Positions 9,424 to 34,379 of a DNA stretch of 34,379 nucleotides are shown here, one piece after another; the first letter of the stretch is position 1, and the number at the start of each line of letters is the position of its first letter. The position numbers and the translations under genes are program-made. The notes under the pieces are model-generated. The model saw only the letters and a program-made list of their open reading frames with translations. It did no database searches and was not told where the DNA came from. Source of the stretch: Candidatus Saccharimonadota bacterium (GTDB lineage: Bacteria; Patescibacteriota; Saccharimonadia; Saccharimonadales; Saccharimonadaceae); assembly GCA_017516075.1 (NCBI GenBank), contig JAFWDS010000005.1:1-34379 (forward strand), read 5' to 3'.

Positions 9424-11660
9424 TCATTATTATATGCGTAATAATCTCTTAAATACGCAATTACGGGGTTTTCTTCCCCCTCAAAGAACGGAATAGTTGT
9501 ATAAGCAGTTTTATCATCGGCGTATTGTCGGAGCACTGCTGTTGCTCGCGCTAGAGAAACATATCTCTGCGCATATTTATACGTTGACCAGTCGCTATTA
9601 CTATAAGAATTTACAAAGGCTTCTCCCGAGGCTAACCTTTTACTATTGTCATCTGACTCCAAGAACTTCTTCACCATCCCAAGTATATTTGATATAAATG
9701 AAACCGACCCCGAATTATTTGATTCTGATTCTAGAATTCCCCCATCCACTACACCAATCGGAGTAACCCTTTCATCATTGTCTCTTATAAATCTAGCTAG
9801 TACACTATCGCTATTAATTGTCCTGTTTCCTGAAGAAGATAAAGTAGTATTATTATTCACAAACTCAATAAATCCTGGATCATTAAAGGTATCGTTCAAA
9901 GTAGAAGTATCAAAAGTTGCACTATCAGCACATTGTGCTGTTCCTACCGCTCCAATCGTAGCTAATGTCTCACAATCACCAAAAGTAGTTAAATATCTCC
10001 CATTGTCATCATCGTCTGCATGGGAAGTTGGTAATAGTGCTACTACCGAAGTGTTAACTGTTTCAGCAAAAGTATTTACTCCACTAAATAATCCACTCTT
10101 GTTGTGTGACACCGCTATCGCCAGATTATATATAATAGATCCAAGAAAAGTATTTTTGGAGGTTACATCAAACGGACTTCTGTTTAATCTGTCCGCCTTA
10201 GCATCCATCGCTAGGACTGTTGAATTTAATTTTGCGTATTGGCGTACCGATTCGGCGTCACCAGGTGTCGCACCACTTGCTCTTGCGAGCTCTGCACCTA
10301 CATTAATTGCTCCCTCCACCAAGAATTCTCCCGCGTCTATTCCTTTAATCGTCCGATAAGAATTATCTACTAGAGAGCTTTGGATTGTTGGTTTTATTAC
10401 GTCTAACGAATCGCTTGAAGCGAGTTCATTCCCAGAATTAGTAAAACGTCCAATCGATCCCTTTATCTTTTCCTTAGTAGAAGCCACTGTACCCCTAATA
10501 ATGTCACCACTATTACTATTCCCTACTCTATTTTCTACAGTTTTTAATACTCTATCAGAAGAATAATTACTCACCGCATCTGTATCAACCTTACTACCTG
10601 CAAGTACTGCATATAAACTCGGTGACTCCAGTGGTGTCCCGGTCTCCTGAATCACTCCACCGGTTTTTACATCTACTACTTCTGACTCCTCGTTTTTATA
10701 TAAATAATTCATCGCATCGTTAATTTGTGACTCATTCCCTTCCCCTGCCTTCATTTTGCTAATATTCTCCATAAACGTCAAGAAGAACAAACTAGACCTC
10801 TGTTTCTTTGAAATCTTATCGGCCACCTTGAGTGTGTCGGCTGAGCCAAGAGCTGATTCTGTGCTTGTTGCACCAGGGTTCTTTTCCCTTACCTCGTTTA
10901 CAAAACTTTCGGTATCCTTACCAGACCTTGCGTTGTTTCCATTCTCTGTATATGTATAGGATATTTCTTTCTGCCCATCCGCATTGGTTGTCTCGGTTTC
11001 TACCATCGAAACACTATTAATACTAACATTACTTCCCTTTCCCACCAAAGAATCCATCACGTCGTCAAATTCGGTTTCACTTGTATAATTGTCTCTCGTT
11101 GTACCAATCTTTTTAAAAACATCTTTAGCGGGCTCGTCGTAATAGTATGCTGCCCTTGAATATGTTGACTCATTAAAAGCGTTATAAAGCTGGACGTTTT
11201 CGCTCGATTCTTTTATAAAGTCGCTCGCTGAGATGATTTTGTCCCCCATCTTGAGCACTAATTCCCCACCACTTTGATTAGACTCAACAAACTCACCATT
11301 ATCTATATACCCCACTAGCACCCCTCTTGATTTGAGGTTGCTTGCGGTATTATTTGGTATATTCCCATTACGAAGCGCCTGTTGAAAAACTAGCTTTTTA
11401 CTCTCAACCGCATCAGCATATTGAACATCGGTCTCCTCTATTAATCTCTCCGAAATAGCCGAAGGTATTAAATTCCCAGAGCTAAAGAACACCCCAAAAA
11501 TCACAATCATCGCCGTCAAAAACCCCATCGCCCCAAAAGCCTTCAATTTCTTCCCCCCCGAAAATTTACTCAGCTGTTTTATTCCGGAGACATTTGTAAT
11601 AAACTGGTTATTAGCCAGGGCGTTGTCTTCGCTTTTTTGTAATAATTCTTCAGCGCTCAT
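9420..11660 (-). CDS. Large anchored extracytoplasmic protein, unknown family
   Basis: 746 residues from the ATG at 11660. The open frame continues 94 codons upstream, but that part overlaps the divergent methyltransferase and reads as non-protein. A cytoplasmic tail of about 40 residues precedes one hydrophobic helix (41-62, AFGAMGFLTAMIVIFGVFF), then a very long polar domain. Near the C-terminus a less polar stretch (LGSIIYNLAIAVSHNKSG) precedes a Cys-containing segment (YLTTFGDCETLATIGAVGTAQC). This architecture suits a protein projecting from the membrane, for example an envelope-machine component, but I cannot assign a family. A TATAAT box at 11685-11690 gives a leader of about 17 nt. 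Confidence 0.75.
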   Translation of the reverse strand: MSAEELLQKSEDNALANNQFITNVSGIKQLSKFSGGKKLKAFGAMGFLTAMIVIFGVFFSSGNLIPSAISERLIEETDVQYADAVESKKLVFQQALRNGNIPNNTASNLKSRGVLVGYIDNGEFVESNQSGGELVLKMGDKIISASDFIKESSENVQLYNAFNESTYSRAAYYYDEPAKDVFKKIGTTRDNYTSETEFDDVMDSLVGKGSNVSINSVSMVETETTNADGQKEISYTYTENGNNARSGKDTESFVNEVREKNPGATSTESALGSADTLKVADKISKKQRSSLFFLTFMENISKMKAGEGNESQINDAMNYLYKNEESEVVDVKTGGVIQETGTPLESPSLYAVLAGSKVDTDAVSNYSSDRVLKTVENRVGNSNSGDIIRGTVASTKEKIKGSIGRFTNSGNELASSDSLDVIKPTIQSSLVDNSYRTIKGIDAGEFLVEGAINVGAELARASGATPGDAESVRQYAKLNSTVLAMDAKADRLNRSPFDVTSKNTFLGSIIYNLAIAVSHNKSGLFSGVNTFAETVNTSVVALLPTSHADDDDNGRYLTTFGDCETLATIGAVGTAQCADSATFDTSTLNDTFNDPGFIEFVNNNTTLSSSGNRTINSDSVLARFIRDNDERVTPIGVVDGGILESESNNSGSVSFISNILGMVKKFLESDDNSKRLASGEAFVNSYSNSDWSTYKYAQRYVSLARATAVLRQYADDKTAYTTIPFFEGEENPVIAYLRDYYAYNND

Positions 11661-11701
11661 CTTGTGTGACCTATATATAACTATATTATAACATATTCTG
11701 C

Positions 11702-11707
11702 TATAAT
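11702..11707 (+). promoter_or_regulatory. -10 box for the methyltransferase gene, leaderless
   Basis: TATAAT with seven bases to ATG. It faces a divergent TATAAT (11685-11690, minus strand) for the large anchored protein, so the two promoters nearly touch. Confidence 0.6.
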
Positions 11708-11714
11708 ATAAAAT

Positions 11715-12974
11715 ATGCCAAAGATTGAAAAACTCATTCCGGGAGGTCAAGCCCTCGCAACAATGCCTGATGGTAAAAAGGCGTTTTTTTGGAAAGCTCT
11801 CCCAGAAGAGATAGTTGTAGAATACGACGTCGTCAAAAACAAATCGCATTATTTCGAAGCAATCGCCACAAAAATTGAAAACCCATCTCCTCACCGGCAA
11901 GAACCTAAAGACGCCTGTTTTCTTGCTACGTCTCCCTGGCAAATCTTAAACTACGACTATGAATTATCGCAAAAACAAGAGTTAATTGTCGAAATCTTCC
12001 GAGAACAAGGTATTTCTATTGACAAACCAGAAATCGCCACTGATTTCAAAGATTATTTTTATCGCAACAAAATGGAATATGCTCTCTATTGGGATCGTGA
12101 ACAAAGTAAGATTTTGCCTGCCTTTCACGCTCGCGGTTTCCATCGCAAAATTCCCATCACCTCGTCCTCTATCGAACGTCCAGAATTATTTCAGCGCGCC
12201 ACTGAAATCATTGATGGGTTAAACGCGAATCACGAAGAAGCCCGCAAATATCATTCCCTACTACTTCGTTGTAATACAAAAGGCGAAATCTCCGGTGGTC
12301 TCTACGAAAACAAAAAGCCTCACCCAGTCTTCGATAATCTCACCGACAAGATTCTTGGCCAAGAATTTTCGTACTCTCCAAACGGCTTTTTCCAAATCAA
12401 CCTCCCAGTCTACGAAATGGCATTAAAGGAGATTAAAAAACATATCAATACGGATAGTGTTCTCGACCTCTATGCTGGCGTCGGCACCATCGGCCTCACT
12501 GTTGCCCCCGACTGTCGTCTCGCTCTAGTCGAAGTCGATAAAAGCGCTTATAAAGAGTTAGAACGAAATTGTACGATGCGGCAAGTTATTACTACTTCTG
12601 AGGAGCATGTTTGCCGACGTGGCAAACGCGGAGCGACCGAAGCCCGTGACGACGGGCCTGAGGGAGCGTTCCGAAGAAGTAGTAATAACTTGCCTACCCC
12701 AATTCTTTCGAAATCTGAAGAGGTTCTAAGTTTTATCAACTCCGACCAAACCATCATTCTTGATCCTCCTCGCGCCGGCCTCGACCAAAAACTTGTCGCA
12801 CACCTAGCCAAAGCTAGACCCAAAACTATTATCTACTTATCATGCAACCCAATTACCCAAGCTCGAGACATTAAACAACTACTAGATGCTTACGAGATTA
12901 AGAAGTTTAAAACCTTCAACTTCTTCCCCCGCACTCCCCATATTGAAAACTTAGTAGTATTGGAAAGAAATTAG
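11715..12974 (+). CDS. TrmA/RlmC/RlmD-family RNA uracil-C5 methyltransferase
   Basis: 419 residues. A TRAM-like N-terminus (residues 1-55) precedes the family core: FFQINLPVYEMA, SAM motif VLDLYAGVGTIGL, IILDPPRAGLD, and the catalytic cysteine at about 377 in YLSCNPITQARDI. The substrate should be a uridine in tRNA or 23S rRNA; which one cannot be told. The four-cysteine iron-sulphur motif of RlmC/RlmD is not seen: only one cysteine remains in DACFLATSPWQ. A family B palindromic element lies in frame between the acidic end of the SAM region (LVEVDKSAYKELERNC) and the DPPR motif, a variable loop in the family. The frame and all catalytic motifs are intact. Confidence 0.88.
   Translation: MPKIEKLIPGGQALATMPDGKKAFFWKALPEEIVVEYDVVKNKSHYFEAIATKIENPSPHRQEPKDACFLATSPWQILNYDYELSQKQELIVEIFREQGISIDKPEIATDFKDYFYRNKMEYALYWDREQSKILPAFHARGFHRKIPITSSSIERPELFQRATEIIDGLNANHEEARKYHSLLLRCNTKGEISGGLYENKKPHPVFDNLTDKILGQEFSYSPNGFFQINLPVYEMALKEIKKHINTDSVLDLYAGVGTIGLTVAPDCRLALVEVDKSAYKELERNCTMRQVITTSEEHVCRRGKRGATEARDDGPEGAFRRSSNNLPTPILSKSEEVLSFINSDQTIILDPPRAGLDQKLVAHLAKARPKTIIYLSCNPITQARDIKQLLDAYEIKKFKTFNFFPRTPHIENLVVLERN
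12580..12694 (+). repeat. Family B palindromic element inside the methyltransferase gene
   Basis: The 75-bp core 12600-12674 is nearly identical to 31961-32035 in the ATPase gene. It holds two hairpins, GTTTGCC/GGCAAAC (12609-12615 with 12621-12627) and GCCCGT/ACGGGC (12642-12647 with 12652-12657). Outside the core, 12580-12599 and 12675-12694 are perfect 20-base inverted repeats whose sequence is not shared with the other copy. The core is exactly 25 codons and is read in the phase GAG GAG CAT. It adds a basic peptide (HVCRRGKRGATEAR) to the host protein. Confidence 0.85.
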
Positions 12975-21745: not shown

Positions 21746-24679
21746 ATGAAATATGCGAGTAGTTATGAACCGGGAGAATACGAATCAGATATTTATGCTT
21801 CTTGGGAAGCATCCGGTATTTTTAATCCAAAACTAACCACCATGCCCGTCGACAATGACGGCGACGGCGTCGACGACAGGCAAGAAAACTTGGCATCCAA
21901 TCCTAAGGTATTCTCTATCGTCATGCCACCGCCAAACGCCAACGGCAATTTACATATTGGCCATGGCCTCACTGTTGCTCTCGAAGATTCTCTTACACGC
22001 TATTATCGCTTAAGAGGCGCATCCTCTTGGTATATACCTGGCGCCGATCATGCCGGCTTCGAAACCTGGGTCGTCTACGAAAAAAATCTCGAGAAACAAG
22101 GCCACACTCGCTTCGAATTCGACCGTGACACTCTCTATGCTCGCGTCTGGGATTTTGTCGCCGAACAACGTGGCAACATGGAGCTCCAGCTCCGCGCCCT
22201 TGGCGCCTCATGTTCTTGGGATGACCTCACCTTCACTCTAGACGAAAACGTCATCGACCGCGTCTATACTACATTTGAAAAGATGTGGAATGACGGCCTG
22301 ATTTACAGAGGCGAAAAGCTCGTCAATTACTGCCCCAAGCATCGTACTGCTTTCGCAGATATAGAGGTAGAGCACAAAGACGAAAAAGGCACTCTCTGGG
22401 ACCTCGAATACAAACTAGTAGAAGAGGATTCGGAAAGTGCTATTTCGAAACATGTACGAGGCTCCGACAGTCATTTTGACAACGGTCACGGACGAGAATC
22501 TGATACTGAAATATCAGGGCGAGTCCGCCTGAACCGTTGTGAAAATGACGATCGCGAGCCGAGTACGTTGAGAAATGGCACTTCCGAAACTTCCCTAATA
22601 GTTAGCACTACTCGCCCAGAGACCTTATTCGGCGATGTTGCCGTAGCTGTAAATCCGGAAGATGTGCGCTACAAGGGCCTAATTGGTAAGCATGTTCGAC
22701 TCCCTCTAACAGATAGAACAATTCCAATTATCGCCGACGAGCATGCCGACCCAGAATACGGCACTGGTGCTGTCAAAATCACCCCTGCTCACGATTTCGA
22801 TGATTTCGAGGTTGGCGAGCGCCACAATCTTGAGCGTATTCAGGTGATTTCCGAAGAAGGCAAGATGGTCAATGTCCCAGAGAAATACTATGGCATGACC
22901 ACCGAAGAATGCCGCAAACAAGTTTTGAAGGATTTGAAGGAACAGGGTTTACTCAAAGGTGAACACAAAATTGTTCACTCTGTCGCCCACTGCTACAAAT
23001 GTGGTACTATTCTCGAGCCCATGCTCAAAGAGCAATGGTTTGTTGATGTTGAAACCTTGGCCAAAACCGCTATCGAACATCTGGAAAACGACGAAATCAA
23101 ATTCCACCCAGAGAACAAGAAGAAGGTCCTCATCAATTATCTCAAGAATCTCAAAGACTGGAACATTTCCCGCCAAATTCCTTGGGGTATCGCCATCCCG
23201 ATGTTTCGCCAGGTTGGTGATGCCTCAGACGAACCAGATTGGATTTTTGATCGCCGAACCCATTTGAAGGAAATAGAAAAAGCCGGCGTGCGATATGAGC
23301 GCGATGAGGATACTTTTGATACTTGGTTCTCTAGCTCGCACTGGCCAATTGTCTGCACTAACTGGACCGAAGAAAATTTCAACCCATATTACCCTCTAAA
23401 TGTCATGGAAACCGGCGCCGATATCCTCTTTGCTTGGGTCGCCCGCATGATTATGATGGGGCTTTATGTAACGGGCAAAGTGCCATTTAAAGAAGTTTAT
23501 CTTCACGGCCTCGTTCTCGATGAACATGGCCAAAAAATGAGCAAAAGCAAGGGCAATGTGATAAATCCCATGGATCTTGTCACTAGATATGGCTCCGACG
23601 CCTTCCGCCTTGGTATATTGAGAGGCCGCTCCGCCGGCATGAACCAAGCCTTCAGCGAAAACTCCGTCATCGCTGGCCGCAACCTCTGCAACAAGCTCTG
23701 GAACATCTCCCGTCTCGTCCAATCTATCGTAGATGAAGAATCGGAAGATAACATTTCGAAACATTTACGAGGCGCCGACAGTCATTTTAACAACGGTCAC
23801 GGACGAGAATCTGATACTGAAATATCAGGGCGAGTCCGCCTGAACCGTTGTGAAAATGACGATCGCGAGCCGAGTACGTTGAGAAATGTTACCTCCGATT
23901 CTTATTCAACAGATAATATGGGCGAAGACTGGATTTGCCGCGAGATTAATAGCTGCTTGGAGCAGGTTGAAAGCTGTATGCAGAACTATCGTTTTGCCGA
24001 AGCAGTAGAAATCTTATATCAGACCATCTGGGACAAATACGCTGACTGGTTCCTAGAGTCGCAGAAACTTTACAAGAACGCCACACTTCTAAAAACCACC
24101 CTCACTTCCCTGTTAATTGCCCTCCATCCTTTCGCTCCCTTTGTTACCGAAGCAATTTGGCAAAATCTCTCCTGGACCGAAGGCTTCATTGCTACAGCAA
24201 AATGGCCTGCTAGGCTCGAATATGACCCGATTTCCGCCGAAAACTTCGAAAACATAAGAATTATCGTGTCTGAAGTCAGAACCACCTTGCAAGCCCTTCC
24301 AGGCGCCAATAACGCCAAAAAATACAACCTATATTACGACAACGACAGCCTCGTGGATGATAATCAGTTGTTAATCAAGACTCTCACCAGAGTCCCAGCG
24401 GTTAATTCCCTAGATGGCGCCCCTAGAGGCCTCAGATTAGCTCTAGCCAACCACGAGCTTTACCTTGATGTCCCAGAAAAAGTCGTCAAGCAGTACAAAG
24501 ACGCCCTTACGGAGAAGATTCTCGCCGTCGGCCGCGAGCTAGATGCTCTTAATCTCCGGATGAGCAACCCCAATTACGTCGAACGCGCCCCAGAACATCT
24601 CGTCAAAGAGACAAAAGATCAGATTAAAGAAAAGGAATCCCTCATCTCCCGCCTCAAAACTCAGCTATCAATAATATAA
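21746..24679 (+). CDS. valS: Valine-tRNA ligase with two embedded palindromic elements
   Basis: 977 residues, longer than the usual 870-900 because of the inserts. HIGH motif is LHIGHG (69-74) and KMSKS is near 596. The editing domain has TTRPETLFGDVAVAVNPED. The catalytic domain continues with DTWFSSSHWP and GADILFAWVARMIMMG, then the anticodon-binding domain and a C-terminal coiled coil (KDQIKEKESLISRL). Family A elements lie in frame at residues 233-277, just before the editing-domain TTRPET strand, and 670-714, at the start of the anticodon-binding domain. Before HIGH is an extra acidic loop, DNDGDGVDDRQEN (36-48), like an EF-hand or thrombospondin type 3 calcium loop. It charges tRNA-Val. 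It is leaderless and is followed closely by an AT-rich gene. Confidence 0.97.
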   Translation: MKYASSYEPGEYESDIYASWEASGIFNPKLTTMPVDNDGDGVDDRQENLASNPKVFSIVMPPPNANGNLHIGHGLTVALEDSLTRYYRLRGASSWYIPGADHAGFETWVVYEKNLEKQGHTRFEFDRDTLYARVWDFVAEQRGNMELQLRALGASCSWDDLTFTLDENVIDRVYTTFEKMWNDGLIYRGEKLVNYCPKHRTAFADIEVEHKDEKGTLWDLEYKLVEEDSESAISKHVRGSDSHFDNGHGRESDTEISGRVRLNRCENDDREPSTLRNGTSETSLIVSTTRPETLFGDVAVAVNPEDVRYKGLIGKHVRLPLTDRTIPIIADEHADPEYGTGAVKITPAHDFDDFEVGERHNLERIQVISEEGKMVNVPEKYYGMTTEECRKQVLKDLKEQGLLKGEHKIVHSVAHCYKCGTILEPMLKEQWFVDVETLAKTAIEHLENDEIKFHPENKKKVLINYLKNLKDWNISRQIPWGIAIPMFRQVGDASDEPDWIFDRRTHLKEIEKAGVRYERDEDTFDTWFSSSHWPIVCTNWTEENFNPYYPLNVMETGADILFAWVARMIMMGLYVTGKVPFKEVYLHGLVLDEHGQKMSKSKGNVINPMDLVTRYGSDAFRLGILRGRSAGMNQAFSENSVIAGRNLCNKLWNISRLVQSIVDEESEDNISKHLRGADSHFNNGHGRESDTEISGRVRLNRCENDDREPSTLRNVTSDSYSTDNMGEDWICREINSCLEQVESCMQNYRFAEAVEILYQTIWDKYADWFLESQKLYKNATLLKTTLTSLLIALHPFAPFVTEAIWQNLSWTEGFIATAKWPARLEYDPISAENFENIRIIVSEVRTTLQALPGANNAKKYNLYYDNDSLVDDNQLLIKTLTRVPAVNSLDGAPRGLRLALANHELYLDVPEKVVKQYKDALTEKILAVGRELDALNLRMSNPNYVERAPEHLVKETKDQIKEKESLISRLKTQLSII
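22430..22587 (+). repeat. Family A palindromic element, copy 1 (valS)
   Basis: The 135-bp core 22442-22576 codes for 45 residues from ISKH to STLRN. Core stem GTCATTTTGACAACGG (22470-22485) pairs with 22534-22549 with one mismatch. An inner hairpin CTGATA/TATCAG sits at the tip. The outer arms 22430-22441 and 22577-22587 also pair. Copies 2 and 3 have the same core length and codon phase. Confidence 0.9.
23739..23900 (+). repeat. Family A palindromic element, copy 2 (valS)
   Basis: Core 23753-23887 (135 bp) is nearly identical to copy 1. The outer arms 23739-23752 (AATCGGAAGATAAC) and 23888-23900 (GTTACCTCCGATT) pair with each other with one gap, and differ from the arms of copies 1 and 3. 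Confidence 0.9.
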
Positions 24680-28386: not shown

Positions 28387-29616
28387 ATGAATTTTATTAC
28401 CTTAGAACCAGAACAATTCAGGGAATATGCTCAAAAATCTCCCTATAAATCCTTCTATCAAACCCCAGAAATCGCCAAACTCCGCGAAAACAGTGGCTGG
28501 ACTCCCTATTATTTTGGTGTAGAAAGTAGTGGCAAACTCCTTGCCGCTTCTATGGTAGTAGCGAAACCTGCTTTCCTTGGCAAATCCATCTATTACGCTC
28601 CCGGCGGACCCTTGTTAGATTTCGAAGACGCAGACCTCACAGGCTTCTTCATGAAAAACCTCAAATCCTACGCCAAGTCTCACAACGGCTACATCGTTCA
28701 TATCGAGCCATATTATGAGCTCGTCGAACGTGATCGCCACGGCGAAATAATAGAAGGAGGCTTTAATCACCAAAAAGCTCTCAACAACCTCAAAAACGCT
28801 GGCCTTATCCGCCTACCAAAATCTGATGAACCTAAATACTCTTTTGTCCTGGACATCAAAGACCACACAGCTGAACAAATATTTGCCGACATGAAGAGAA
28901 ATACTCGGAACCACATCAGAAAAGCCGAAAAAATGGGCGTCAAAATCCGCGAATTAAAAAGGGAAGAACTCGGCATTTTCAAACAAATCACCGAATCTAC
29001 CTCCAACCGCCGCAACTTCACCGACAAGCCCTTGTCCTATTACGAACAGATGTACGACCTCTTCCATGGTCGTGGCGAAGTTATGTTTATGTTGGCAGAA
29101 GTGGAGGGGCAATTGGAAGATACCATTTCGAAACATTTACGAGGCGCCGACAGTCAGAATTACAACGGTCACGGACGAGAATCTGATACTGAAATATCAG
29201 GGCGAGTCCGCCTGAGCCGTTGTGATTCTGACGATCGCGAGCCGAGTACGTTGAGAAATGGTACTTCCAATTGCAAAACCCCATTATCTGCCGCCATGTT
29301 CATGCTCTACGGCGATGAGGTGATATATCTGTTTTCCGGTAGTGATGAGAAATACATGAAAGACTACAACGCCCAGTATTTGATCCAATGGCACATGATC
29401 AAATACGCTGTCGAGCATGGCTTCAAGCGCTACAATTTCTACGGCATCCAAGGCTTGCCAGATAAATCCAGCAAAGATTACGGTATTTATGACTTCAAAA
29501 AAGGTTTCACTTCTGATGAAACCGGCCGTGTCACCGAACTTATCGGGGCTCATGAGTTACCAGTGAATATGATTTTTTATCAGCTACATAAATTATTAAG
29601 TAAACTAAAGCATTAA
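28387..29616 (+). CDS. FemAB-family peptidyltransferase with embedded palindromic element
   Basis: 409 residues. Family features: SFYQTPEIAKLRENSGWTPY, GKSIYYAPGGPLLDFED, a central FADMKRNTRNHIRKAEKMGV, SAAMFMLYGDEVIYLFSGSDEKY and YNFYGIQG-like with YGIYDFKKGF. A family A element fills residues 247-291, between EVEGQ and PLSAAMFMLYGD, two strands joined directly in relatives. Without it the protein is about 360 residues, normal size. It probably adds amino acids to peptidoglycan precursors. It is only about 22% identical by eye to the first FemAB gene, so it is not a recent duplicate. A DUF362 gene follows with a proper ribosome binding site. Confidence 0.87.
   Translation: MNFITLEPEQFREYAQKSPYKSFYQTPEIAKLRENSGWTPYYFGVESSGKLLAASMVVAKPAFLGKSIYYAPGGPLLDFEDADLTGFFMKNLKSYAKSHNGYIVHIEPYYELVERDRHGEIIEGGFNHQKALNNLKNAGLIRLPKSDEPKYSFVLDIKDHTAEQIFADMKRNTRNHIRKAEKMGVKIRELKREELGIFKQITESTSNRRNFTDKPLSYYEQMYDLFHGRGEVMFMLAEVEGQLEDTISKHLRGADSQNYNGHGRESDTEISGRVRLSRCDSDDREPSTLRNGTSNCKTPLSAAMFMLYGDEVIYLFSGSDEKYMKDYNAQYLIQWHMIKYAVEHGFKRYNFYGIQGLPDKSSKDYGIYDFKKGFTSDETGRVTELIGAHELPVNMIFYQLHKLLSKLKH
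29110..29273 (+). repeat. Family A palindromic element, copy 3 (FemAB gene)
   Basis: Core 29125-29259 (135 bp). Its main stem is GTCAGAATTACAACGG (29153-29168) with 29217-29232. Compared with copy 1 the left arm changed from CATTTT to CAGAAT and the right arm from AAAATG to ATTCTG, so pairing is kept. Outer arms 29110-29124 (CAATTGGAAGATACC) and 29260-29273 (GGTACTTCCAATTG) pair. Confidence 0.9.
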
Positions 29617-30716: not shown

Positions 30717-33116
30717 ATGAATCAGACCGGTCTCACCAAAAAACAAGTCCAAGCTAGAATTTCCGAGGGTAAGGTCAATCAAGCCCCTCGCAAAAATCAG
30801 ACCACAATCACCAATATCATCCTCCGAAACACCCTCACTATCTTTAATCTCGTCAACCTCATCCTCGCCCTCATGATTATCTCAGTCGGTTCTTACAAGA
30901 ACCTTCTTTTTGTTTTGATTGCCATCGCGAACACCCTTATCAGTATTATCAACGAAATCCGCGCTAAAAAAACCGTCGACAAAATGCGTCTTATTTCTGA
31001 ACAAAAACCCACCGTCATCAGAGATGGCAAAACTCAGCAAATCCCTGGGGACCAAATTGTCGAAGGCGACCTCCTTGTCTATTCTCTCGGCGACCAAATC
31101 CTCGTTGATTGCAAAATCACCGAAGGCTCAGTCGAAGTCAACGAATCTTTCATCACTGGCGAACAAGACAATATCACCAGGGCAAAAGGCGCCAAACTTA
31201 TTTCCGGCTCCTTCATCGTTTCCGGCACCTGCAAAGCCGAAGCTACCGCTGTTGGCAAAGACAGCGAGCTAAACAAACTCGAATCCAGCGCCCACGTCAT
31301 CAAAACCGCCGATTCCAAGCTCTTCAAACTCATGAATAACATCGTCAAATACATCAGCTTCGCTCTCATCCCTATCGGCGCTCTCCTTCTCTGGAGCCGC
31401 TTCCGTGTCGAAACCACAGACACCACCACCGCCGTCACTAGCACCGTTGCATCTCTTATCAACATGATTCCAGAAGGTCTCATCCTTTTAACCAGCTCTG
31501 TTCTCGCTCTCGCAACCATCCGGCTGAGTAAAAAGCAGGTTCTTGTCCAAGACCTCTATTCCATTGAGACGCTCGCTCGTGTCGATACCATCGCTCTAGA
31601 TAAAACCGGCACCCTCACTTCCGGCAAAATGAAGGTTCACGACTATACCCCCATCAAAAAATCCTTTGAAACGGCCCTAGCATCGATTCTAAGCCACCAA
31701 ACCACCGAAAATGCTACCATAAGCGCTTTGAAGCAAAAGTTCTTAAAAACTACCAATAATCAAGAAATAGACGATATTATCAATATCATCGATTTCTCCT
31801 CCGAACGCAAATGCTCCGGCATCGTCACAAGAAACGCCACCTACCTCCTTGGTGCCGTCGATTTCATCACCAATGATGAAGAGATTATCAAAAAGGTCCA
31901 ATCCGCCTCCGCAGGCTACCGCACCTTAGCAGTTATACAGTGCGAGGAATACCCTCGTTCGAGGAGCATGTTTGCCGACGTGGCAAACGCGGAGCGACCG
32001 AGCCCCGTAACGACGGGCGCGAGGGAGTGTTCCGAGAACGACGGGTATTCTCGCACTGTGCTGCTAGGGTTCATTCGTCTCGAAGACGAAATCCGCCCTG
32101 ACGCCAAGCAGATTATCAAGTACTTCTACGACAACGACATCGCTGTAAAAATTATCTCCGGCGACGATCTGGAGGCTGTTACCAAAATCGCCACCCGCGT
32201 CGGCGTCAAAGACTTAAACGGTGTTAATCTTTCCGATTTCAAGACTCCAGATTATGACAAACTGGTTCAAAAATACTCGATTTTCACTCGTGTCACCCCA
32301 GCCCAGAAAAAGCATCTCATCGCAGCTCTGAAAAAACAGGGAAACACCATTGCCATGACTGGCGATGGTGTCAACGACATTCTGGCTATGAAAGAAGCCG
32401 ACGTTTCAATTGCTATCGGCGAAGGCTCCGACGCCGCCCGTAGAAGCGCCAAACTCGTCCTCTTAAACTCCGGCTTCGAATCCGTCCCGTCCATCATCGA
32501 CGAAGGCCGTCAGTCTATCAACAACTTAGAGCGCTCCACCGCCCTCTTTCTCGCCAAAACCATCTACGCCAGCATCCTCGCCATCATTTTTATCTTCATC
32601 CCCATCAAATACCCCTTCTCTTCACCAGTTGAAATGTCACTCTTAAACTTCGCCTGTATCGGCTTCCCAGGCCTCATCCTCGCTCTCGAACACAACACCG
32701 AGCGCATCAAAAACCGCTTTACTCGCAATATCATCGAATACTCTCTCCCAGTCGGCCTTACAATTTCCATTTCTATGCTCACTCTTTCTATCCTCGCTCA
32801 CCTCAACATTTTCCCACATTACGACCTCGCTACCACCGCAGTTTTCGTCACCTTTACTATTGACCTCATCCTAATTTACTGGATCTCGAGACCTCTAAAC
32901 ACCCTCCGCGCCGGCCTCCTCCTCACCATCATCGCTATTATGGTAGGCGCCTTCCTTATTCCATTCTTCCACGATTTCTTTGACTTCGTCTTCCTCACCT
33001 CAAACGGTCTCATTGTCACCCTCATCGCCATCGCTTCTTCTGTTGCTCTTTTCGGAATCCTCCGCCGCATCATGAAATTCATCTCTACCCGCCTCTTCGA
33101 CCAACCAGGCATTTAA
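30717..33116 (+). CDS. P-type cation-transporting ATPase, CtpE-like
   Basis: 799 residues from the ATG at 30717; an upstream in-frame ATG lies inside the preceding hairpin and is rejected. Motifs: actuator ESFITGEQDNI, helix motif NMIPEGLILLTSS (PEGL), phosphorylation site ALDKTGTLTSG, hinge MTGDGVNDILAMKEADVSIAIGEGSDAARRSAK, and about ten membrane helices. The PEGL motif and GDGVNDILAMKEAD suit the actinobacterial CtpE group, linked to calcium uptake, but ion specificity is not certain. A family B element lies in the nucleotide-binding domain (codons about 415-440), between TLAVIQC and LLGFIRLEDEIRPDA, which are adjacent strands in relatives. Confidence 0.9.
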   Translation: MNQTGLTKKQVQARISEGKVNQAPRKNQTTITNIILRNTLTIFNLVNLILALMIISVGSYKNLLFVLIAIANTLISIINEIRAKKTVDKMRLISEQKPTVIRDGKTQQIPGDQIVEGDLLVYSLGDQILVDCKITEGSVEVNESFITGEQDNITRAKGAKLISGSFIVSGTCKAEATAVGKDSELNKLESSAHVIKTADSKLFKLMNNIVKYISFALIPIGALLLWSRFRVETTDTTTAVTSTVASLINMIPEGLILLTSSVLALATIRLSKKQVLVQDLYSIETLARVDTIALDKTGTLTSGKMKVHDYTPIKKSFETALASILSHQTTENATISALKQKFLKTTNNQEIDDIINIIDFSSERKCSGIVTRNATYLLGAVDFITNDEEIIKKVQSASAGYRTLAVIQCEEYPRSRSMFADVANAERPSPVTTGARECSENDGYSRTVLLGFIRLEDEIRPDAKQIIKYFYDNDIAVKIISGDDLEAVTKIATRVGVKDLNGVNLSDFKTPDYDKLVQKYSIFTRVTPAQKKHLIAALKKQGNTIAMTGDGVNDILAMKEADVSIAIGEGSDAARRSAKLVLLNSGFESVPSIIDEGRQSINNLERSTALFLAKTIYASILAIIFIFIPIKYPFSSPVEMSLLNFACIGFPGLILALEHNTERIKNRFTRNIIEYSLPVGLTISISMLTLSILAHLNIFPHYDLATTAVFVTFTIDLILIYWISRPLNTLRAGLLLTIIAIMVGAFLIPFFHDFFDFVFLTSNGLIVTLIAIASSVALFGILRRIMKFISTRLFDQPGI
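31928..32065 (+). repeat. Family B palindromic element inside the ATPase gene
   Basis: The 75-bp core 31961-32035 matches 12600-12674 almost base for base, but is read in another phase (AGG AGC ATG TTT), giving SMFADVANAERPSPV. Its outer arms, 31928-31960 and 32036-32065, pair over about 28 bases with three small bulges and bear no resemblance to the arms of the other copy. Confidence 0.85.
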
Positions 33117-33128
33117 AACCACCTTTTA

Positions 33129-34379
33129 TTAGTTTTTCTTGAAATCAATAAACCTCTCTGCAGCCCAGCCCTTAAAACCCGGAAATTCTCTTTCAATTTC
33201 TTGATACTCCTCTTCTTCGGTAGCTGGAATTCTCAGCGTCCTCTTAAAGCTTTTATTGTATTGATAATAACTCCCGCCATCATATATTACAATCCTGTCG
33301 CTATATACTTCTCCAACCATCACATTATGCATCTGGTGGTGTAGCGGATAGTGCCAGCTAGAGTCATGACGATTTCTCTTGTCGAATCTATGATCCTTAA
33401 GGTAGACAAAGTCACCCGGGCGCAAGTCCTTAAACCTAGTTATAAGCCTAGCATTTTTGGTCTCAATCCCTAGCTTTTCGTAAATAAATCCTGGAGGGCC
33501 ACCGCATTCGGTTGACATTTGCAAACCTTTTGCTCCGGATATTCTTTCGTCAAAGGTAGCGTTAATCTTTCCCCTATATAGAGAGCTGTTGACGTAGAAT
33601 GCGTCAGGTGCGTAACTACTTCCACCCCATTTCTCGTGCTGCCCACCAGCATTTAAGTAATCCCATCCAATCATATACATCCATCCGAATACATATTCGG
33701 CGGCTTTATGAAAATCGTATTCGGTGCGACCCGTAATAGTCTTACCGTAGTATTTGCCGAATATGCCGCCTAGACTCCTGGCGTAGTTAGCGAAGCCACC
33801 ATGGGAATTTATAACATCATAAAAATTGTTTGCATCAAAATCGTATAAATGGTTTTCTACTATTCTCATAGTCTCAGAAGAAAAAAGACCTGGCTTTACG
33901 GTGCCATTGCCTTTATAGCTGAAATCTAGTTTGGTAGGTTCTGGTTGTTTGACGGTCACTTCCATAGTGGCTTGTTTACCATTAGCAGATGTAGCAGTGA
34001 TTTTGGTTTTACCAGTTTTCTTGCCAACTACCACACCATTGACTACTGATGCTATATTGCTATTAGCACTCTTCCAGGAGAGTGTCTTATCAGTAACATC
34101 TGCTGGTTCAAATTGTACAGTTAGCTTTTCGCTTTTACCAATATCCACGGATGCTTTAGCTTTATTAATTGTAATAGAAGAAATATCACCAGCAGGATTA
34201 TTTAGCAATCCTCCTGGTAGTAGCCATTGTAAGAATGTAAACATGATAGCATAGGCTACTAGACCTATGACTATTTCAAAGAGTCTTCTTTTGGCTTTGG
34301 TAGTCTTTTCAGTATTGGGTCCTGCCGTGAGATATTGTATACCTACTACACTAATACCAATTACACCAAGGATACCTAC
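33129..34379 (-). CDS. Pilin-like TM pair + Ig-like domain + cysteine-peptidase-like domain, 5' end outside window
   Basis: 416 codons visible; the frame is still open at the window edge, so the ATG at 34244 is internal. Visible residues 1-56 are two helices joined by a basic loop (GILGVIGISVVGIQYLT, TTKAKRRLF, EIVIGLVAYAIMFTFLQWLL), the pattern of VirB2/TrbC-type pilins in this phylum. Next comes a Big_2-like domain (KASVDIGKSEKLTVQF, LSWKSANSNIASVVNG, GKTKITATSANG). The C-terminal 250 residues resemble NlpC/P60 or CHAP enzymes: STECGGPPGFIYEKLG (Cys), LRPGDFVYLKDHRF and MHNVMVGEVYSDRIVIYDGG (His, then Asp). It would act at the cell surface on peptidoglycan. The enzyme assignment is inferred from motif order. 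Confidence 0.7.
   Translation of the reverse strand, partial: VGILGVIGISVVGIQYLTAGPNTEKTTKAKRRLFEIVIGLVAYAIMFTFLQWLLPGGLLNNPAGDISSITINKAKASVDIGKSEKLTVQFEPADVTDKTLSWKSANSNIASVVNGVVVGKKTGKTKITATSANGKQATMEVTVKQPEPTKLDFSYKGNGTVKPGLFSSETMRIVENHLYDFDANNFYDVINSHGGFANYARSLGGIFGKYYGKTITGRTEYDFHKAAEYVFGWMYMIGWDYLNAGGQHEKWGGSSYAPDAFYVNSSLYRGKINATFDERISGAKGLQMSTECGGPPGFIYEKLGIETKNARLITRFKDLRPGDFVYLKDHRFDKRNRHDSSWHYPLHHQMHNVMVGEVYSDRIVIYDGGSYYQYNKSFKRTLRIPATEEEEYQEIEREFPGFKGWAAERFIDFKKN

Follow-up and report, generated by a model that had tools for sequence, protein, structure and literature searches.

Two-helix hairpins resembling VirB2-like pilins carry predicted surface enzymes in Saccharibacteria and small-genome Bacilli

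Saccharibacteria need a type IV secretion system (T4SS) with VirB2-like pilins for life on their hosts, and VirB1-type enzymes are often not found in them according to two studies (PMC12102498, PMC12857230). Arrays of VirB2-like pilins have been reported in Patescibacteria, and that report, in which neither 'NlpC' nor 'CHAP' occurs, gives most VirB2-bearing genomes as lacking VirB1 (Quinonero-Coronel 2025, PMC12102498). In the other study, VirB2 is described as absent from Gram-positive T4SS with the exception of Patescibacteria, the essential pilin array is said to raise the possibility of a pilus-like structure, and some inactive VirB1 homologues are proposed to be adhesins (PMC12857230). 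VirB1-type hydrolases such as TraG (pIP501) and PrgK (pCF10) are membrane-anchored extracellular wall enzymes of T4SS-bearing monoderms, which is also what we propose for the protein studied here. Known members carry SLT, CHAP, MUR or LytM domains, and none is described on a pilin hairpin in the same source (PMC12857230). The Patescibacterial VirB2-like pilins (PF18895) form a two-helix hairpin behind a signal peptide, as does the present protein family (PMC12102498). In contrast to these short pilins, our protein adds an Ig domain and a putative enzyme, is encoded elsewhere in the genome and scores below the PF18895 cut-off. Enzymes on pilin hairpins are not described in the literature that we searched, which took in few subscription journals and no bioRxiv preprints.

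We analyzed a window of 34,379 nucleotides, which is an entire contig (G000:C19) of a 0.92 Mb genome in 37 contigs. With a VirB4 that shares 94% identity with its counterpart in a Candidatus Saccharibacteria genome (that of L040), the window genome is Saccharibacterial, and its source is a small, probably parasitic bacterium. An ORF on the minus strand (33129-34379) comprises 416 codons plus TAA and is open up to the contig end, such that its 5' end is missing. It encodes, in this order, a pilin-like two-helix hairpin, a Big_2 domain and a C-terminal domain without family name (the head in the following), with these features:

33129..34379, minus strand: whole ORF with hairpin, Big_2 and NlpC/P60-like domain (416 aa + stop, 5' end missing)
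34323..34379, minus strand: truncated helix 1 of the pilin-like hairpin, predicted transmembrane (residues 1-19; model, hydrophobicity; T4SS_pilin 20.3 bits, below cut-off)
34281..34322, minus strand: short basic inter-helix loop, predicted cytoplasmic (residues 20-33; sequence, positive-inside rule)
34212..34280, minus strand: predicted transmembrane helix 2 (residues 34-56; model, hydrophobicity)
33960..34181, minus strand: Big_2 Ig-like domain, putative spacer (residues 67-140; Pfam E 2.5e-12, beta strands in model)
33132..33890, minus strand: NlpC/P60-like domain (residues 164-416; AF2 pLDDT 91, structural neighbours, profile against PDB sequences)
33504..33506, minus strand: codon of Cys292, presumed nucleophile (Cys in 38/38 relatives)
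33327..33329, minus strand: codon of His351 (His in 38/38 relatives)
33279..33281, minus strand: codon of Asp367 (35 Asp and 3 Glu among 38 relatives)

The three-part architecture is certain. It is more than chance, since the same parts recur in a paralogue with 77% identity to the window ORF and in named Saccharibacteria loci. This paralogue (489 aa, full-length) lies on contig C10 (L009:3890-5359) and supplies the start that the window ORF lacks, i.e., a signal-like helix and a short outer segment, followed by hairpin, Big_2 and the same head. Contigs C26 and C12 each terminate in a further 5' end that matches the paralogue at 63% and 70% identity, respectively, and neither of them overlaps the window end exactly. 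The genome thus has three or more such loci, for which only two C-terminal halves were found. These two contig ends (L076:1-156 and L077:1-132) share 141 identical bases inside the 5' part of the gene and differ in their upstream flanks; such near-identical copies point to recent copying or gene conversion.

The AlphaFold model of the full ORF (pLDDT 88.1, pTM 0.73) shows an Ig-like sandwich and, for the hairpin, helices at residues 2-17 and 23-53. With regard to the hairpin, the hydrophobic stretches cover residues 1-19 (truncated) and 36-54 and are joined by a loop rich in Lys and Arg. That is, the protein has the two transmembrane helices and the short basic loop of T4SS_pilin members. Following the positive-inside rule, basic loops of membrane proteins stay cytoplasmic, and we consider it likely that the hairpin is an outward-facing membrane tether with this predicted topology. 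The PF18895 match of the window ORF is below the cut-off of 26.6 bits (E 6e-4, 20.3 bits; 24.5 in the genome search), as is that of the full-length paralogue (21.4 bits), while relatives exceed it (29.3 and 38.4 bits, and 27.9 for L158, which has the same chassis). For the hairpin proteins, NCBIfam yields only weak matches below cut-off, to intimin and to membrane proteins of pilin-like or conjugation type. The Big_2 domain is clear (47 bits, cut-off 22.8, E 2.5e-12). The preliminary description had read this ORF as pilin helices leading into an Ig-like domain and a cysteine-peptidase-like domain with the Cys, His and Asp order of NlpC/P60 or CHAP enzymes. All three parts are borne out by the models, the structural neighbours of the head and the residue conservation detailed below, and the predicted structures hold both the hairpin and the papain-like site on which that reading had been staked.

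The head alone matches neither a PHROG nor any Pfam family at E<=0.1, and thus does not reach the cut-off of PF00877 (23 bits), for which its relative L037 scores 18.7 bits. Its AF2 model from 29 sequences is confident (pLDDT 91.0, pTM 0.91). A Foldseek search of the model against PDB and viral models gave nothing at E<=0.001. A second structural comparison ranked MepS (7v6u) first (Z 7.8, 116 residues, 3.4 A), followed by 3h41 (Z 7.5), and its top 14 rows are all NlpC/P60-type peptidases with Z between 7.8 and 6.8, where values below 8 are rated middling by the tool. The assignment therefore leans on the agreement of structure, profile search and residues. In the profile comparison with PDB sequences, the best seven of ten matches are NlpC/P60 proteins (E 0.03-0.3), and the catalytic Cys is aligned with those of 4fdy, 3h41 and 6biq. 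Among 38 aligned relatives, Cys292 and His351 are invariant and position 367 is Asp in 35 and Glu in 3; Asp323 and Arg409 are likewise kept in 38/38. As in NlpC/P60 domains, the Cys precedes a helix (by two residues, helix 131-139 in head-model numbering), the His opens a strand (188-195) and a third polar residue follows. A chance resemblance of the Cys/His/Asp pattern is ruled out by the 38/38 conservation together with the structural model. By this agreement, the head is a putative papain-like domain of the NlpC/P60 superfamily. It resembles NlpC/P60 (C40) and CHAP hydrolases, e.g., MepS, in predicted fold and Cys-His-Asp order and differs from them by a longer N-terminal part, by inserts and in that no curated profile reaches its cut-off.

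Relatives of the head occur in 17 viral-contig loci. We scanned seven long phage proteins in full with Pfam and found extra domains after the head domain, namely CW_7 (L044), Amidase_2 plus PG_binding_1 (L047, L049), GH25 (L048) and choline-binding repeats (L051-L053); an eighth, cut-off piece (L056) shows a weak Amidase_6 match only. Five of the scanned proteins match endolysin PHROGs via these other domains, not via the head, and endolysin, tail and integrase families are represented among the neighbours scanned at three of the viral loci. For one phage protein, NCBIfam gives weak matches below cut-off, wall enzymes among them. Given the endolysin company of the head in viral contigs, a wall-cutting role is the natural reading by association. 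That is, the head appears to be an endolysin-type wall-hydrolase domain, which strengthens the earlier proposal of a wall hydrolase, and we regard a wall hydrolase as likely. It would add an undescribed family to the endolysin-type catalytic domains. The phage endolysins (viral contigs L044-L055) have a catalytic domain homologous to the window head, but they are soluble, carry wall-binding or second catalytic domains and have no hairpin, whereas the window protein is tethered by a hairpin, has no wall-binding domain and thus is not a soluble lysin of a phage lysis module. We ran tblastn with one phage copy of the domain on 50,697 annotated phage records and with the window domain on 72,556 plasmid records, and neither search produced a match. 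Some viral-contig relatives (L050, L057, L058, L060; L045, L046) show TGA at a conserved Trp or an in-frame TAG, which suggests phages with altered genetic codes.

The design of hairpin plus enzyme is not unique to the window genome; two unrelated small-genome groups have it. Named loci with the head (n=19) belong to Saccharibacteria, several of them titled rumen, ileum or jejunum, and to MAGs labelled Bacillales or Firmicutes. In the 13 genomes from which 13 of these loci derive, the head is present 31 times. In four Bacilli genomes, we found 9 to 19 PF18895 hairpins per genome, mostly in ORFs of 280-440 aa, and the hairpin-enzyme genes are dispersed over many contigs. In 31 Saccharibacteria-family genomes, PF18895 ORFs mostly have about 90-250 aa and few reach at least 400 aa (among the matches listed, E to about 1.6e-8). 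To summarize the heads, we compiled 64 hairpin ORFs (47 from Bacilli, 17 from Saccharibacteria). These are the window ORF and its paralogue, 13 ORFs of the loci already described and 49 ORFs with a length of 250 aa or more in stretches of seven genomes; two of the 64 (L160, L161) are multi-hairpin proteins without head. The Pfam tally at E<=0.001, in which some matches are below the curated cut-offs, comprises T4SS_pilin (53), Big_2 (11), NLPC_P60 (8), GH114, Lactamase_B, S11 and CHAP (2 each) as well as YkuD, VanY, ELLD, Amidase_3, glucosaminidase, C39_2, GDSL_2 and DUF4886 (one each). The head type of the window is present in 18/64. For one ORF (L026:5596-6621), both T4SS_pilin and YkuD exceed their cut-offs. 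As judged from these matches, T4SS_pilin hairpins bear putative interchangeable surface enzymes in rumen/gut Saccharibacteria and small-genome Bacilli. A Saccharibacterial ORF (L148:634-1584) shows the reversed order, with an endolysin-like domain first and the T4SS_pilin hairpin last.

At least four head types are common to Saccharibacteria and Bacilli. Cross-phylum identities are 48% for the window head (with L024), 55% for GH114 (L137 and L156), 52% for C39-like (L129 and L152) and 34% for GDSL/DUF4886-like heads (L146 and L153). In a tree of 38 heads, a 12-row set with support 100/100 unites the window, its paralogue and the Saccharibacterial L025 with nine Bacilli rows, and the remaining 15 Saccharibacterial rows fall outside of it. 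A single clade of all 18 Saccharibacterial heads is rejected (AU p 9.4e-9), where the grouping was set by taxonomy and the test was chosen after tree inspection. The hairpin and Big_2 chassis of the paralogue is 50% identical to that of L158 from another Saccharibacterium, the C-terminal part of which does not match the window head and is a different head. With a head nearest to Bacilli and a Saccharibacterial chassis, the window protein is a chimera, the head of which may have been transferred in either direction. Heads have moved between Saccharibacteria and Bacilli. We also considered MAG contamination as origin of the Bacilli copies. The L024 and L026 copies are surrounded by ordinary chromosomal genes of their contigs (names judged by eye), which makes contamination unlikely, and it is further disfavoured by the presence of Bacilli copies in several genomes and by hairpins without the Saccharibacterial signal and Big_2 chassis.

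The preliminary description had suggested looking for T4SS genes next to the ORF. The window contains none, and the gene neighbours of the ORF include FemAB and DUF362 genes. The T4SS cluster of the genome, with short homologous hairpins, PrgI (44.8 bits) and VirB4, is on contig C30, apart from both the window gene (C19) and the paralogue (C10). The window gene is therefore not beside virB4, unlike the genes of VirB1-type hydrolases. VirB4 is found in 12/14 head-bearing genomes, where the head gene has no linkage to virB4. In three Bacilli genomes, short hairpin genes are located within about 5 kb of virB4 and near the gene of a large membrane protein, which in L166 is TrbL_4 (30.5 bits, above cut-off) and accompanied by a VirD4-type gene (T4SS-DNA_transf, 189 bits). 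In Bacilli, short hairpins have virB4 as well as VirB6-like and VirD4-type genes as neighbours. These loci (L164, L165, L166) represent a small-genome Bacilli family with a chromosomal T4SS and VirB2-like hairpins. The Saccharibacteria likewise carry a chromosomal T4SS. One further gene of the L166 locus (10031-12412) encodes a SpoIID domain (31.3 bits, cut-off 23), which is possibly the wall enzyme of the Bacilli T4SS itself.

Within the Bacilli family of G554, VirB4 is present in 49/58 genomes (E<=1e-20) and the hairpin in 42/58 (E<=0.001; above cut-off in 22). Hairpins occur in 39 of the 49 genomes with VirB4 versus 3 of the 9 without (p 0.0096), a comparison for which MAG completeness and common descent are confounders. 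The head, on the other hand, is found in 2/58 genomes of this family. Given this co-occurrence and the rarity of the head, hairpins accompany the T4SS, while the window head in general does not. Among 199 Saccharibacteria-family genomes, four including the window's own show the head, one of them so weakly that it is not counted as real, and among 379 genomes of the phylum only the window's own does. We therefore rejected the head as a general T4SS component, since it is too rare (4/199, 1/379, 2/58 genomes).

Taken together, we consider it rather probable that the best overall explanation is a surface-tethered cell-wall hydrolase on a VirB2-like hairpin. The Sec-type signal seen in the paralogue would export the protein, the hairpin would stay embedded in the membrane, its two ends facing outwards, Big_2 would act as spacer, and the NlpC/P60-superfamily head is predicted to cut peptidoglycan peptides outside of the cell. 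Its likely role is to open or trim the wall at the site of contact, perhaps in concert with the T4SS. Catalysis, membrane topology and contact-site role are all inferred, and the cooperation with the T4SS is the least certain step, for which we see about even chances; an attack on the host wall is possible. The latter had been linked to a parasitic lifestyle. The same architecture is common in some small-genome Bacilli, which need not be parasites, so parasitism is not a sufficient explanation. All in all, the evidence backs the preliminary interpretation in part. A more far-reaching and tentative idea takes the VirB2-like hairpin as a T4SS sorting tag: VirB4 would pull hairpin proteins from the membrane and display or deliver swappable heads at cell-cell contacts, an arsenal on which Saccharibacteria and small-genome Bacilli would have converged or which they would have exchanged.

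In another reading, the hairpin is a plain two-helix membrane anchor that has nothing to do with the T4SS, and the enzyme trims the wall of its own cell as this grows. This agrees with a gene apart from the T4SS cluster, with the spread of hairpin-enzyme genes over many contigs in four Bacilli genomes and with YkuD, VanY and S11-like heads, which suit work on the own wall. We nevertheless deem it unlikely, because hairpins of this family also occur as short VirB2-like genes next to virB4 in both groups, GH114, GDSL and metallo-hydrolase heads are not obvious self-wall enzymes, and heads are exchanged with another phylum. The canonical NlpC/P60 motif is DCSG, and the window has ECGG at this site. 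Together with a head that is rare and multi-copy, this would fit an adhesin for the host surface that binds peptidoglycan without cutting it. However, Cys, His and Asp/Glu are kept in 38/38 relatives from phages and two phyla, which is unusual for a dead enzyme and renders such an adhesin very improbable. It is hardly probable either that the protein is a lysin or antibacterial weapon acquired from phage and directed against competitors rather than the host. The domain is shared with viral contigs, its distribution is patchy and the near-identical extra 5' ends speak for recent copying; against this, the protein has a membrane tether and no cell-wall-binding domain of phage lysins, and in the 38-head tree the window head is closer to other sequences than to the phage copies.

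If they are tethered wall hydrolases, pilin-hairpin enzymes are concrete candidates for the missing wall-opening step of the Saccharibacteria T4SS, and they also provide a testable idea of pilin cargo. Unrelated small-genome Bacilli combine this design with a chromosomal T4SS, which suggests that these uncultured bacteria, too, may act on neighbours by surface contact.

Finally, the window carries in-frame repeat inserts within conserved genes, i.e., at 29143-29292 in the FemAB ORF and at 31953-32060 in a P-type-ATPase-like ORF. Copies with 85-95% identity are located at 22479-22585 and 23771-23888, and at 12600-12674 and in L077 (5636-5716 and 5097-5171). These inserts are reminiscent of the Rickettsia palindromic elements.
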